Source of the DNA: Deltaproteobacteria bacterium
Lineage (GTDB): Bacteria > Desulfobacterota_D > UBA1144 > Nemesobacterales > Nemesobacteraceae
Direction: 5' to 3'
DNA: 34,340 nt
Assembly: GCA_029262295.1 (NCBI GenBank)
Contig: JAJCZR010000025.1
Coordinates: forward strand, 1 to 34,340
A program made the position numbers and the translations under genes. Shown one piece after another: positions 4,642 to 12,595 of this stretch (position 1 is the first letter of the stretch; every line of letters begins with the position of its first letter). The notes beneath the pieces were generated by a model that had not been told where the DNA came from, made no database searches, and saw nothing but the letters and a program-made list of their open reading frames with translations.

Positions 4642-5817
4642 CTATGAATAAACTATTTCATAGACTTCTTTAAAGGCATTAAGAGCAAAGTCTATTTTTT
4701 CTTCAGTATGAGTGGCCATTATTGAAGATCTAATTCTACATTTTCCGGTAGGAACAGAAGGAGGTCTTACAGCAGGACTGTAAACTCCTTTCTCTCTCAA
4801 CATTCTAGAAAATTCAAGTGCCGGCTCTGGTTCACCAATTAACACTGGAATAATTGCTGAATGGGTTGGCAAAATTTCAAGACCGATATTTTTGATTCCA
4901 GCTTTAAATCTCTTAATCAATCTCCAAAGATTATCTCTTCTCTCTTTTTCATTTTCTATAATATTTATTGCCTCAATTGAAGCAGCAAGTGAAGATGCCG
5001 GAAGAGATGTATCAAAGATATAAGTCCTAACTCTGTTTCGAATAAAATCTATAAGTTTTTGGCTGCCACAAACATAGCCGCCAAGAGAACCAACCGCTTT
5101 AGAAAGAGTACCCATTACAATTGGCACTCTTTTTTCAACATCAAAATACTCTGTTGCCCCGCTACCTCTTTCGCCAAGCACGCCCATAGCATGAGCTTCA
5201 TCAATCATAAGCATACAGCTAAATTTTTCACAGATTTCAACCAATTTTCTAAGATTAACCAAATCTCCGTCCATACTGAAGATTGTATCTGTAACCACTA
5301 GTTTCTTTTTGTAACTTTGATTATTTGAAATAAGTTCTTCAAGATGTTTGAGATCAAGATGCTTGTAAATTTCTGTTTTAGCTTTTGAAAGTTTGCAGCC
5401 ATCAATTATTGATGCGTGGTTTAATTCATCACTAAAGATAATATCATCAGGCCCAACAATTGAAGAGATTGTACCAACATTAGCAAGATATCCACTGCTG
5501 AAAAGTATTGCAGCTTCAGTATTTTTAAACTCTGCAATTCGTTCTTCAAGCTGCCTGTGCAAATCAGAGCTTCCACTCACAAGCCTGGAACCACCCGACC
5601 CAGTTCCATATTTTTCCAAAGCAGACTTTGAAGAGTTTATTACTCTTGGATCAACAGAAAGCCCAAGATAGCTGTTTGAAGCAAGTAAAACATGTGATTT
5701 ATTGTCAATCTTTATTTGGGGAAACTGACCTGTTTGTAATTCGGTTAAGTTTCTGAAAAGATTATTGTCGTGAATTGATTGAATCTCATCATTAATCCAG
5801 ATTAGAGGGTCATTCAT
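4642..5817 (-). CDS. bioF: 8-amino-7-oxononanoate synthase
   Basis: PLP-dependent alpha-oxoamine synthase that condenses pimeloyl-ACP/CoA with alanine in biotin synthesis. Length is 391 aa. Motifs: GTGSGGSRLVSGSSDLH (71-87) near the N-terminus, His134 in DELNHASIIDG (stacks on PLP), Asp206 in MIDEAHAMGVLGERG, and the PLP lysine Lys240 in GTLSKAVGSLGG. The paralogue Kbl (glycine C-acetyltransferase) is similar, but the adjacent bioA, only 9 bp upstream, settles the assignment. The next gene downstream is the LsrF-like gene after a 78-bp gap. Confidence 0.94.
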   Translation of the reverse strand: MNDPLIWINDEIQSIHDNNLFRNLTELQTGQFPQIKIDNKSHVLLASNSYLGLSVDPRVINSSKSALEKYGTGSGGSRLVSGSSDLHRQLEERIAEFKNTEAAILFSSGYLANVGTISSIVGPDDIIFSDELNHASIIDGCKLSKAKTEIYKHLDLKHLEELISNNQSYKKKLVVTDTIFSMDGDLVNLRKLVEICEKFSCMLMIDEAHAMGVLGERGSGATEYFDVEKRVPIVMGTLSKAVGSLGGYVCGSQKLIDFIRNRVRTYIFDTSLPASSLAASIEAINIIENEKERRDNLWRLIKRFKAGIKNIGLEILPTHSAIIPVLIGEPEPALEFSRMLREKGVYSPAVRPPSVPTGKCRIRSSIMATHTEEKIDFALNAFKEVYEIVYS

Positions 5818-5826
5818 AAGACTATT

Positions 5827-7185
5827 CTAACTATCTTCAGTAACTTCTTTAATAGACTTATATGTTGCATGGACAAGTTTTTTAAGATCATCCATCTCAA
5901 TACCGAGCGGGGGCATCAGAACTACTACATCACCAAGTGGTCTGAGAAGTACTTCATCTTCAAGAGCTTTATCTGCAACCTTCGAGCCCATTTTAAGGTT
6001 TGATTTATAAGGAGTTTTATTTTCTTTATCCTGTACAAGCTCAATTCCTACCATAAAACCCTTGTTTCTTACATTTCCTACATGCTCCAAACCCTCAAAC
6101 TCTTTCAGCTCTTTTTCGAGATAGTCAATCTTATACTGAAGCTTCTCTAATGTATTGTTATTTTCAAACGCCTTAAGATTTCCTCTTGATGCAGCACAAG
6201 AAAGTGGATTTCCTGCATAGCTGTGACCATGAAAAAAAGTCTTATATTCATCATAATTCCCAAGAAATTCATCATAAATCTTCTGAGTTGTAATAGTTGC
6301 AGAAAGTGGAAGATATCCTCCGGTAAGCCCTTTACCCAGAACCAGCATATCAGGAGTAACATCCTCATGTTCACAGGCAAACATCTTTCCGGTTCTGCCA
6401 AAACCTGTAGCGACTTCATCAAGAATCATGAGGACATCGTATTTATCGCAATAATCTCTAACCTTTTTCAAATAACCTTCAGGCGAAACGATCATTCCAC
6501 CTGCAGCCTGTACATAAGGCTCAAAAATCACTGCTGCTATTTCTTCATTATTTTCTTCAAGTATTTTTCCAAGTTCATCAGCACAAGCAATATTGCATGA
6601 TGGATAAGTTTTGTTTAACGGGCATCTGTAACAGTAATAAGAAGGTGCCCTGAAAGTCTCAAACAAAAGAGGCGCAAAAGTCTTATGAAATATATCAATC
6701 CCGCCAACTGAAACCGCCCCCAAGGTATCGCCATGATAACCATTATCAAGGCATAAAAACTTTTTCTTTTCACTCTTGCCTTTATTCTGCCAGTATTGAA
6801 AAGCCATCTTTATAGCAACTTCCACAGCAGATGCGCCATCACCTGAGTAAAACACTTTTTTTAAGCCGGGAGGACAAATATCTATCAGTTCTTTTGCAAG
6901 CTCGGCTGCAGGAGGATTAGTTATTCCCAAAAGAGTGCTGTGGCTTATTTGCTTAACTTGTTCCTGAATAGCTTCATCAATCTCAGGGACTTTATGTCCA
7001 TGCACATTTACCCAGAGCGAAGAAACTCCGTCTATATATTTTTTTCCTTCCGAGTCAATAAGGTATGAACCCTCAGCACTCTCGATAACTATAGGTTCTT
7101 TTTCCTCATAATCTTTCATTTGTGTGAACGGATGCCACACAAATTCTTTATCGTATGAACCTATTTTTTTGGATTTATCAGACAT
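5827..7185 (-). CDS. bioA: Adenosylmethionine-8-amino-7-oxononanoate aminotransferase
   Basis: Biotin pathway class III aminotransferase that makes 7,8-diaminopelargonate using S-adenosylmethionine as the usual amino donor. The family opening is present (FVWHPFTQMKDY, 15-26), as are SGDGASAVEVAIKMA (114-128), the PLP-contacting Asp256 in LDEVATGFGRTG, and Lys285 in LVLGKGLTGGYLPLS. The length of 452 aa is normal. A short Cys-rich stretch YCYRCPLNKTYPSC (184-197) is typical of the long BioA subgroup. It is followed by bioF after 9 bp. It is separated from bioB by 307 bp of repeat-rich DNA, so it may have its own promoter. No Shine-Dalgarno is obvious before the ATG. Confidence 0.95.
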   Translation of the reverse strand: MSDKSKKIGSYDKEFVWHPFTQMKDYEEKEPIVIESAEGSYLIDSEGKKYIDGVSSLWVNVHGHKVPEIDEAIQEQVKQISHSTLLGITNPPAAELAKELIDICPPGLKKVFYSGDGASAVEVAIKMAFQYWQNKGKSEKKKFLCLDNGYHGDTLGAVSVGGIDIFHKTFAPLLFETFRAPSYYCYRCPLNKTYPSCNIACADELGKILEENNEEIAAVIFEPYVQAAGGMIVSPEGYLKKVRDYCDKYDVLMILDEVATGFGRTGKMFACEHEDVTPDMLVLGKGLTGGYLPLSATITTQKIYDEFLGNYDEYKTFFHGHSYAGNPLSCAASRGNLKAFENNNTLEKLQYKIDYLEKELKEFEGLEHVGNVRNKGFMVGIELVQDKENKTPYKSNLKMGSKVADKALEDEVLLRPLGDVVVLMPPLGIEMDDLKKLVHATYKSIKEVTEDS

Positions 7186-7233
7186 AGATTATTTTTTAAT
7201 TCTTTTGGGCATTGCAAAAATGGCCGTAAAGAA

Positions 7234-7302
7234 AATGAATTAATATTGCGTAAAAAAGTATCCAGGGTGGGGGATGATTTGGATACTTTAGCAATATTCA
7301 TT
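7234..7302. repeat. Long imperfect inverted repeat (about 69 bp)
   Basis: AAAGTATCC (7255-7263) pairs with GGATACTTT (7281-7289). AATATTGC (7242-7249) pairs with GCAATATT (7291-7298). AATG (7234-7237) pairs with CATT (7299-7302). Asymmetric internal loops separate the helices and a 17-nt loop caps the structure. It could be a small non-autonomous palindromic element or an RNA hairpin in the bio transcript. Confidence 0.7.
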
Positions 7303-7339
7303 TATTTTTAGCTAAATTTTTGCACAGCCTTGATTTTTG

Positions 7340-7363
7340 TTTCTTTGTATCAAGACAAAGAAA
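7340..7363. repeat. 9-bp stem inverted repeat
   Basis: TTTCTTTGT (7340-7348) and ACAAAGAAA (7355-7363) are perfectly complementary around ATCAAG. Read on the + strand it is followed by an A-run, so it is not a good terminator in either direction. It is more like a dispersed intergenic repeat. Confidence 0.6.
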
Positions 7364-7441
7364 AAAGAATGACTATAAATTTAACTATTTTGCACAATCA
7401 AAGATAGTTGGTAAATAACTACCTACTTATCATTACTCTGG

Positions 7442-7462
7442 ATTCCTGATCAAGTCAGGAAT
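7442..7462. repeat. 8-bp stem inverted repeat downstream of bioB
   Basis: ATTCCTGA (7442-7449) and TCAGGAAT (7455-7462) flank a 5-nt loop, followed by GACAAC. It lies 30 bp past the bioB stop and could stop or stabilise the bioB transcript, but there is no U-tract. Its form (ATTCC...GGAATGAC) resembles common dispersed intergenic palindromes. Confidence 0.6.
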
Positions 7463-7492
7463 GACAACAAATAAAGAACGAAGTTGAGAAAT

Positions 7493-8482
7493 TTAATTCA
7501 CAATATCCTTTCTGATTGGCATTTCAAGATCATCTAGCATCCTAAGGTCTTCTTCAGGAGTTCTTCCAGGAGTTGTAAGATAATTGCCAAGGATCATTGC
7601 GTTAGCTCCAGCCACAAGTCCCATAGCCTGAAGATCACGAAGAGTAACTTCTCTTCCACCAGCAGTCATTATTATCTTATCTGGCAAAATCAATCTGAAT
7701 ATAGATATTGTTTTAACCGCTTCAAATGGAGAAACCATTTCAAATTTCTCAAATGGAGTTCCAGGTCGCGGATTTAAAAAGTTGATAGGTACCCAGGTTG
7801 GATCCATATCCTTTAGTTCAAATGCAAATTCAACTCTTTGTCTTACAGATTCGCCCATACCCAGGATTCCACCACAACAAAGGTTCATTCCTGTTTCTTT
7901 TACTAAATAGGCTGTCTTTGCTCTGTCATCATAAGAATGAGTTGTACAAATATTAGGAAAGTGACTTCTGCATGTTTCTACATTGTGGTTATACCTCCAC
8001 ACACCATGATCTGCCAGTTCAAAAGCCTGTTCTTCTTTAAGGTCACCAAGTGAACAACCAATCTTTAGAGTTGTTTCTTCTCTCAGTAGGTCAACTGCTT
8101 CTAATACTTTATTAAATATTCTTGGAGTTGGCCCTTTTGCACTTATAACAATACAAAAATCCATTGCACCCATTTTCTCAGCATGTTTCGCTGCACCTAA
8201 AATCTTTTCTGCAGCCATAAGTGGGTGTGCTTCAACTTCAGTATCAAAATGAGCGGACTGTGAACAAAAAGAGCAGTCTTCCGGACAGTTGCCGGTTTGA
8301 GCACTAATAATTGATCTTAAAAATACTCCATCTCCTTTATATTTAAGTGTCACTTTTCTTGCAAGAGAAATAAGATCCGACACTTCATCCTTTGGAAGTT
8401 CGGTAAGGGCTATTGCTTCATCGAATGTGATTGATTCATTTTTAACAAGTAATTTTTCGCTAACAGTATTTAAAACGCTAAT
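7493..8482 (-). CDS. bioB: Biotin synthase, probable ATT start
   Basis: Radical SAM enzyme that inserts sulfur into dethiobiotin. The radical-SAM cluster cysteines are in GNCPEDCSFCSQS (Cys66, 70 and 73 with the start used here). Further BioB motifs are YNHNVETC, CCGGILGMGES, INFLNPRPGTP and TAGGREVTLRD. The reading frame continues upstream of the first standard start (GTG at 8383) with coding-like BioB sequence, including ITFDEAIALTELPKDEV. That stretch holds no ATG, GTG or TTG before the in-frame stop near 8524. A strong GGAGG (8490-8494) sits 7 nt before an ATT at 8480-8482, giving 329 aa, close to the family norm. The alternative GTG at 8383 would remove 33 residues; it has an AAGGA only 4 nt upstream. 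The gene identity is certain and the start is an inference. Confidence 0.9.
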   Translation of the reverse strand: MSVLNTVSEKLLVKNESITFDEAIALTELPKDEVSDLISLARKVTLKYKGDGVFLRSIISAQTGNCPEDCSFCSQSAHFDTEVEAHPLMAAEKILGAAKHAEKMGAMDFCIVISAKGPTPRIFNKVLEAVDLLREETTLKIGCSLGDLKEEQAFELADHGVWRYNHNVETCRSHFPNICTTHSYDDRAKTAYLVKETGMNLCCGGILGMGESVRQRVEFAFELKDMDPTWVPINFLNPRPGTPFEKFEMVSPFEAVKTISIFRLILPDKIIMTAGGREVTLRDLQAMGLVAGANAMILGNYLTTPGRTPEEDLRMLDDLEMPIRKDIVN

Positions 8483-8489
8483 TTTGATG

Positions 8490-8494
8490 CCTCC
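8490..8494 (-). promoter_or_regulatory. Strong Shine-Dalgarno deciding the bioB start
   Basis: GGAGG read on the - strand, 7 nt upstream of the ATT codon at 8480-8482. No standard start codon is available at a workable distance in the bioB frame, so this site is the main reason for proposing ATT initiation. Confidence 0.65.
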
Positions 8495-8518: not shown

Positions 8519-8546
8519 AAATTACAGAATGGGCATTGATTGTCAA
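8519..8546 (-). promoter_or_regulatory. Putative sigma-70 promoter of bioB
   Basis: On the - strand a perfect TTGACA -35 box (8541-8546) is followed after 16 bp by TAATTT (8519-8524) as -10. The predicted RNA would start about 20 nt before the GGAGG, a short leader. No obvious BirA-type dyad was seen across the promoter. Confidence 0.55.
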
Positions 8547-11027: not shown

Positions 11028-11762
11028 TCAAACAATAATTTCAATATCAACAATCCAACCATTATTAATTGAAGTGGCAATAAAATTTTCCAGCTCTTTT
11101 TCTTTATCGCTGTAAATTTCACTTAGTTCATTAAATGATTTTTTTTGGGAGAGAAGATTAAGAAAATTAAATTCGTTTTCATCAATATTTTGATAAACAA
11201 CATCCTTATTATGTTTCCAGACTACAACATAATTTTTTGAATTAATAAGTTCAATTTTTCCAACTTCCTCATTTTGATGTTCTTTCCAGATCTCAATTAT
11301 TGGGTAGTTGAAAACTGATAAGGAGAGTGACGGATTTAAGATGAATATCACATCGACATTCTCGTTAGAAACGATTTTTGAAATAATTTCTTCAGGAGAA
11401 TTTGGGACAAAATCTTTTCTGGATGCACTATAAATATTCCATTCAAACTCTGTGACTTCACTTAGATACCCCAACTCTGAAAGTTCTTCTCGTTCAGTGA
11501 TCTCATTTAACAAGAAATCGGAAAAATCATGGCCGTAAACATTAAGGTCAGGTTCGTTAGTTGGTCTTTTTTCTAAATAAATTTCGGAAAGATAAGAAAA
11601 ATATTTTTCTCCGACTATTCGCAAGCAAACAGGATAAACATCTTTTAATGCACTAAGATGGTTTGTGACAACAAGATCACGGTAAACGCTTAATGATTTA
11701 TTCTTATTTTCTTTGAGAACTCCATTTAAAAAATCTTTTTGAATAGAAGCTAAATCACGCAT
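11028..11762 (-). CDS. bufC: BufC-like DUF2063 partner protein
   Basis: A 244-aa protein with an N-terminal DUF2063 domain: MRDLASIQKDFLNGVL, then YRDLVVTNHLSALKDVYPVCLRIVGEKYF and LNVYGHDFSDFL. This is the partner of DUF692 enzymes that presents the precursor peptide's leader. The C-terminal half is an IDIE-like winged/substrate-recognition region, less conserved. It overlaps bufB by 13 bp and is the last gene of the bufA-bufB-bufC set. The assignment rests on the family pattern plus the diagnostic gene order. Confidence 0.88.
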   Translation of the reverse strand: MRDLASIQKDFLNGVLKENKNKSLSVYRDLVVTNHLSALKDVYPVCLRIVGEKYFSYLSEIYLEKRPTNEPDLNVYGHDFSDFLLNEITEREELSELGYLSEVTEFEWNIYSASRKDFVPNSPEEIISKIVSNENVDVIFILNPSLSLSVFNYPIIEIWKEHQNEEVGKIELINSKNYVVVWKHNKDVVYQNIDENEFNFLNLLSQKKSFNELSEIYSDKEKELENFIATSINNGWIVDIEIIV

Positions 11763-12595
11763 ATTGAATCAATTCGCCTGTTGGCATTAGCAGCTTCATC
11801 TATTAGTACCGAAAGCTCAGGGATATCATTATCCCATTCAATAAGTGTTGGAATTTGCCCATAACTCCCTAAAGCATATTCATATAAATCCCACACTTCG
11901 TCCCAAACCCTGCAGTTATGAGAATCAAGGATATACCCTTCCCTTTGCTCACCACCTGCAAGATGCATTTCGCCTATAAGATTTTTAGGAACTTCGGAAA
12001 CATATTTTTTAGCGTCAAGACCAAGGTTTTTAGAGTTTATAAAAATATTATTGATATCTAAAAGAATTCCACTACCACTTTTCCTGGCAATCTGAGTAAT
12101 AAACTCAGGTTCGCTCATCTCTGATTCTACAAAATCAGTGTAAGCTGAGACATTCTCAATTAATATTTCATGGCCAAAAAATTCCTGTATCTGCTCAACT
12201 CTCTCAGCGACATGCAAAACAGTTTCTTCAGTCATTGGAAGTGGAAATAGATCATGAAGATGTACACCATGAGCACCAGACCAGCAAAGATGTTCGGAGA
12301 CTGAAAATGGTTCAAGCCTTTCTGAAAGTTTTCTTAGTTCCTTTAGATAATCAAAATTGAGATCATCTACTGAACCTATGGAAGTACCCACACTGTGAAG
12401 GCTAAAAGGATAATCACTTCTTATCTTCTCAAGCATTTGAAGAGTTTTTTCATCAGCATTGATTAGGTTATCTGTAATTATCTCAAACCAGCCTATATTT
12501 GGCTTTTCTTCGATTATTTGCTCGAGATGGGGGTCACGCAGACCGATTCCTGATTTGAGATTAGACCTGCGTGAAGTATTATCAAATTTAAACAT
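11750..12595 (-). CDS. bufB: DUF692 multinuclear non-heme iron oxidase (bufferin-modifying enzyme)
   Basis: MbnB-like MNIO enzyme of 281 aa with a TIM-barrel pattern of metal ligands: FSLHSVGTSIG, SEHLCWSG, HLHDLFPLP, ILIENVSAY, ILLDINN, GEMHLAGG, DSHNCRVWDEVW and LIEWDNDIP. These His, Glu, Asp and Asn positions bind two or three irons. Known relatives oxidise cysteines of bufferin precursors to thiooxazole-type groups. The start is 3 bp after the bufA stop, and the gene overlaps bufC by 13 bp, so the three are translationally linked. Confidence 0.94.
   Translation of the reverse strand: MFKFDNTSRRSNLKSGIGLRDPHLEQIIEEKPNIGWFEIITDNLINADEKTLQMLEKIRSDYPFSLHSVGTSIGSVDDLNFDYLKELRKLSERLEPFSVSEHLCWSGAHGVHLHDLFPLPMTEETVLHVAERVEQIQEFFGHEILIENVSAYTDFVESEMSEPEFITQIARKSGSGILLDINNIFINSKNLGLDAKKYVSEVPKNLIGEMHLAGGEQREGYILDSHNCRVWDEVWDLYEYALGSYGQIPTLIEWDNDIPELSVLIDEAANANRRIDSICVI

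Follow-up and report, generated by a model that had tools for sequence, protein, structure and literature searches.

The question raised by this locus is which codon initiates translation of bioB, the reading frame of which contains no ATG, GTG or TTG over its 5′ part. The sequence analysed (the window, 34,340 nucleotides in all) comes from Candidatus Dadabacteria, a group of uncultured bacteria to which named homologues assign it, and the features relevant to the question are the following:

8522–8524, minus strand: TAA, the in-frame stop codon that bounds the bioB frame upstream (from the sequence)
8490–8494, minus strand: GGAGG, Shine-Dalgarno sequence (read directly)
8480–8482, minus strand: ATT, very probable start codon of bioB, in frame and 7 nt 3′ of GGAGG
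8384–8479, minus strand: codons 2–33 of bioB, 5′ of the first standard start (GTG 8383), with a coding-type substitution pattern
7493–8482, minus strand: bioB, biotin synthase, 329 codons plus stop (TIGR00433, Pfam, solved relatives)

The product of the frame scores 378.7 bits against TIGR00433 (cut-off 225), has the Pfam domains Radical_SAM and BATS, and carries the radical-SAM CxxxCxxC motif of BioB at codon 66. The best solved relative is 8vdw, with which the alignment begins at query residue 7, well upstream of GTG 8383.

An earlier note on this DNA had claimed that the bioB frame is open back to a stop near 8524 and that its 5′ extension has no standard start; all coordinates and the encoded peptide bear this out. 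The first in-frame standard codon after TAA (8524–8522) is GTG 8383–8381, no ATG, GTG or TTG lies in frame between the two, and the extension between the ATT (8482–8480) and this GTG encodes ITFDEAIALTELPKDEV. Reading of the sequence also confirmed that GGAGG (8494–8490) stands exactly 7 nt before the in-frame ATT, the spacer being CATCAAA on the minus strand.

Start codons in related genomes

Start codons were compared across 58 genomes of the phylum, 44 in the order to which the window belongs (families f1–f7) and 14 in its sister order (f8), for those bioB copies whose start lies on a contig. The type of bioB found in the window (bioB-1; 70–86% identical) is represented with its start by 35 copies from 34 genomes, which span all seven families of the order. 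The homologous first codon is ATT, ATA or ATC (AUH in the mRNA) in each of the 35 copies, and ATG, GTG or TTG in none of them; the 34 distinct sequences comprise 18 with ATT, 11 with ATA and 5 with ATC. Reading of the sequences reveals a Shine-Dalgarno-like stretch 4–9 nt upstream of the AUH codon, retained despite divergence of the leader, although in some copies (L073, L081) it is no more than a G-rich stretch. One genome (G022) has two bioB copies in tandem (L078), both of which start with AUH. This pattern at a homologous codon is not a matter of chance.

Neither of the two refuting outcomes named in the earlier note, a conserved start at GTG 8383 in relatives or a standard start codon in place of the ATT, was found at the level of genomes. 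The proposal that bioB starts at the ATT is thus supported, but in a refined form: what is kept is any of ATT, ATA and ATC, not AUU itself, and the AUH start is shared by the whole order, not peculiar to one genome.

The GTG at 8383 is the first standard codon in the frame of the window, and a start there would leave the extension untranslated. It is, however, not conserved in the relatives, where the position of the first standard codon varies between codon 6 and codon 89; in 9 of the 34 distinct copies this codon falls 3′ of the CxxxCxxC motif, such that a canonical start there could not give an active enzyme. Since, in addition, the codons 5′ of the GTG evolve as coding sequence and the alignment with 8vdw, a solved BioB, takes in the extension, GTG 8383 is ruled out as the general start, and we regard it as hardly credible as the real one in the window. 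An assembly or sequencing error that turned ATG into ATT has practically no probability: although the window comes from a draft assembly of 83 contigs, ATT, ATA or ATC is found in 34 genomes, including the single-contig G013 and G026, and the agreement of so many separate assemblies excludes such an error in practice.

Two further candidates were rejected. TTG codons at position −5 in L067 and L081 lie on or before the Shine-Dalgarno sequence itself and are not conserved, and a frameshift from an upstream ATG was discarded since no leader ATG is conserved in any frame.

Substitution pattern around the AUH codon

Summed over every pair among the 34 sequences, the differences in codons 2–33 of bioB number 5688 at first, 4198 at second and 11122 at third codon positions, whereas the corresponding figures for the 12 codons in frame before the AUH codon are 4475, 4393 and 4364, with no codon pattern. 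The excess at third positions, present in codons 2–33 and absent upstream, places the boundary between non-coding and coding sequence at the AUH codon. From these sequence comparisons, the AUH codon is almost certainly the translation start of bioB.

On the tree, at least 7 substitutions have exchanged T, A and C at the third base of this codon, none of them yielding G. With G at 24.7% of fourfold sites, the chance that drift would produce no ATG over 7 third-base changes is approximately 0.14 (0.753^7), so that it is chiefly the uniformity of the start across families that speaks for selection against ATG. Taken together, the uniformity over seven families and the changes that avoid G support what appears to be selection for a weak start over drift.

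Start codons of other genes

Eleven genomes, from f2 and f7, have a second, paralogous type of bioB (bioB-2; 49–60% identical; L082–L092), which starts with ATG in 11/11 copies. The bioB of the sister order also has an ATG start (13/13 loci). These controls indicate that the AUH start is confined to one gene lineage and is general neither to bioB nor to the genes of these organisms. By comparison, the start codon of infC is ATA in 30/30 loci from the order of the window (L098–L127) and in 13/13 from the sister order (L230–L242), and a Shine-Dalgarno-like stretch precedes this ATA in each of the Dadabacteria genomes read from the two orders. This is the known IF3 arrangement, and it serves as a positive control for AUH starts.

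The frequency of such starts was estimated in a blind search of 324 pairs of conserved genes, from 400 kb of G013 and a stretch of G014, for AUH codons with a Shine-Dalgarno sequence in both genomes and upstream of any shared standard start. The top matches include infC and bioB; the sole other convincing match is an amino-acid ABC permease gene. AUH starts are accordingly rare, at about 3 in 324 conserved genes, a figure that applies to about a quarter of the genome and to two close genomes, genes present in only one of which would be missed.

The permease gene, from genus g2 (L178–L183; G013:C1:1500677-1501789 and relatives), has more than 50 codons without a standard start. Two ATA codons lie just 3′ of a GGAGG, and the gene stands directly behind another permease gene; it may have an AUA start or be translationally coupled.

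That all three AUH codons serve as starts could be explained by a modified anticodon, i.e. by a dedicated initiator tRNA or an altered code that reads AUH efficiently, in which case the codon would not be weak. G013, a single-contig genome, encodes 38 tRNAs, those of the CAU type being one ordinary initiator, one elongator Met and one Ile2-like; no second or unusual initiator is present among the 38. Given this set, and the rarity of AUH starts among the genes of G013, we see only a slim chance for efficient reading of AUH.

A more serious alternative is that the AUH start is real but neutral, the result of a single fixation in the order's ancestor that was tolerated since the cell needs little BioB, and that has no part in regulation. 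Changes among T, A and C without a G are not improbable by themselves, and the Ile codon used most often inside genes of genus g2 is likewise ATA. Nonetheless, AUH is uniform over seven families with a stronger start only one step away, the Shine-Dalgarno sequence is kept in the relatives, and bioB shares its codon class with infC in genomes where AUH starts are otherwise rare. We therefore consider neutrality unlikely.

Upstream element

One further feature lies 5′ of the Shine-Dalgarno sequence:

8519–8546, minus strand: promoter-like TTGACA-N16-TAATTT, the pair being kept at the same place across the order

The earlier note had described a good promoter upstream of bioB. In favour of this, TTGACA (8546–8541) is perfect, stands 16 nt before TAATTT (8524–8519), and the pair is conserved; against it, TAATTT is a poor match to TATAAT as a −10 hexamer, and the site is absent from the predictions of a generic promoter scan. 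Nearly all bioB-1 copies have TTGACA followed after 16 nt (18 in L096) by a TAANNT or TTAA form, approximately 60 nt before the start and within surrounding DNA that diverges. A complete match is seen a single time in the window and a single time in each 400-kb sample, always at bioB. We infer from sequence that the element is the promoter of bioB itself, with a leader of roughly 30 nt.

The same conserved element, which precedes bioB as a TTGACAA-N15-GTAANNTA-like sequence and is found nowhere else in the samples, might instead suggest that the AUH codon forms part of a switch in the leader, either an RNA that responds to biotin or a repressor site. This is very unlikely, as the spacing of the element is that of a −35/−10 promoter. 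The leader has no Rfam match and its consensus RNA fold is empty, which argues against a riboswitch or other structured leader.

Gene order around bioB

Two genes follow bioB on the same strand:

5827–7185, minus strand: bioA, a class III aminotransferase gene, second in the operon and ATG-started (Pfam; 3′ of bioB in relatives)
4642–5817, minus strand: bioF-like, a class I/II aminotransferase gene, third in the operon and ATG-started (Pfam; gene order in relatives)

In most relatives examined bioA lies on the same strand 19–126 nt after bioB, with bioF next where the sequence reaches far enough, and both have normal starts; the three genes are presumably co-transcribed. A dispersed repeat lengthens the gap between bioB and bioA in the window to 307 nt. 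This repeat of about 160 nt (within 7190–7492) has about nine long copies elsewhere in the genome, 77–96% identical, and the same interval contains a shorter repeat that is seen in several other places.

Proposed role of the start codon

BioB belongs to the iron-sulfur radical-SAM enzymes and gives up a cluster as its source of sulfur; little of it is needed, and an excess is costly. In the mechanism that we propose, the AUH codon of bioB (AUU in the window) would be read by the ordinary formyl-Met initiator tRNA, positioned by the good Shine-Dalgarno sequence. The initiator tRNA would make standard pairs with the first two bases of AUH only, and the mismatch at the third base would render the codon a poor start, discriminated against by IF3, which is reported to reject weak third-base pairs (PMC10158994). 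A good promoter and Shine-Dalgarno sequence would thus be combined with a poor start on bioB alone. As bioB heads the series bioB-bioA-bioF, in which the other two genes have ATG starts, BioB is likely to be scarce relative to BioA and BioF, and its synthesis would vary with the stringency of initiation (IF3 level, growth state).

We consider it probable, on the present analysis, that the bioB start is weak, IF3-discriminated and limits BioB relative to BioA and BioF; a function of the AUH codon as an IF3-discriminated attenuator is likewise likely. Weak initiation at AUH, its dependence on IF3 and a benefit to the cell are what we infer, and the link to IF3 fits the ATA start of infC in the same genomes. 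A broader proposal is that the start constitutes an order-wide translational valve, through which BioB output would follow IF3 or initiation stringency, a cofactor enzyme would be tied to the translation machinery, and selection would favour any AUH over AUG; this is a possibility that we would sooner doubt than accept.

Precedents

Starts of this kind are already known, from infC, pcnB, ccpN, cvfC1, Borrelia pncA and, with a non-AUH codon, sigR. The bioB of the window resembles infC (AUU/AUA, IF3-autoregulated) in having an AUH start with a good Shine-Dalgarno sequence, but is a metabolic gene and so lacks an autoregulatory loop; whereas the ATA of infC spans the phylum, the AUH start of bioB is limited to one order. 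In Escherichia coli, pcnB has an AUU start that limits its expression (Binns and Masters 2002, as cited in PMC13009471); both genes share the AUU start and an enzyme kept scarce (for bioB, as proposed here), although pcnB is a different gene and bioB heads an operon with ATG-started partners. The Staphylococcus genes ccpN (AUA) and cvfC1 (AUU) also have conserved AUH starts and strong Shine-Dalgarno sequences, and in S. aureus kept in poor medium expression from AUA/AUU starts was about 10% of that from AUG, the value measured for these two genes (PMC13009471). They encode a regulator or small protein, while bioB exchanges AUU, AUA and AUC between relatives.

A parallel in operon position is sigR of Streptomyces, the GTC start of which is repressed by IF3 and sets the ratio to its co-operonic partner (PMC5472188). 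Both are first genes of an operon with a weak start (a predicted weakness for bioB), but sigR differs in its codon, in encoding a sigma factor, and in the translational coupling of its partner. In Borrelia burgdorferi, pncA (BBE22) has an AUU start, as a result of which its database entries are truncated (PMC13398362); like bioB it encodes a metabolic enzyme, albeit from another pathway, and the AUH start of bioB is found throughout an order.

The gene, the lineage, the breadth of occurrence and the exchange of three AUH codons appear to be new. The suggestion that this is a new case in biotin synthesis stands, as a literature search that was not complete returned no earlier report of unusual start codons in bioB or in Dadabacteria.

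Bacterial AUH starts have so far mostly been isolated cases in model species. The 34 genomes amount to a natural experiment in which AUU, AUA and AUC interchange, and AUG never appears, in a biosynthetic gene, some of these genomes having an ATG-started bioB paralogue beside the AUH-started bioB; why weak starts are kept thereby becomes testable. Gene finders limited to ATG, GTG and TTG would truncate bioB in this group, and comparative scans are suggested as a route to further AUH cases.

A gene pair elsewhere in the window

At 11028–12595 of the window, a DUF2063 gene overlaps a gene of the MbnB/TglH/ChrH type (DUF692), a pair typical of RiPP (modified-peptide) clusters.
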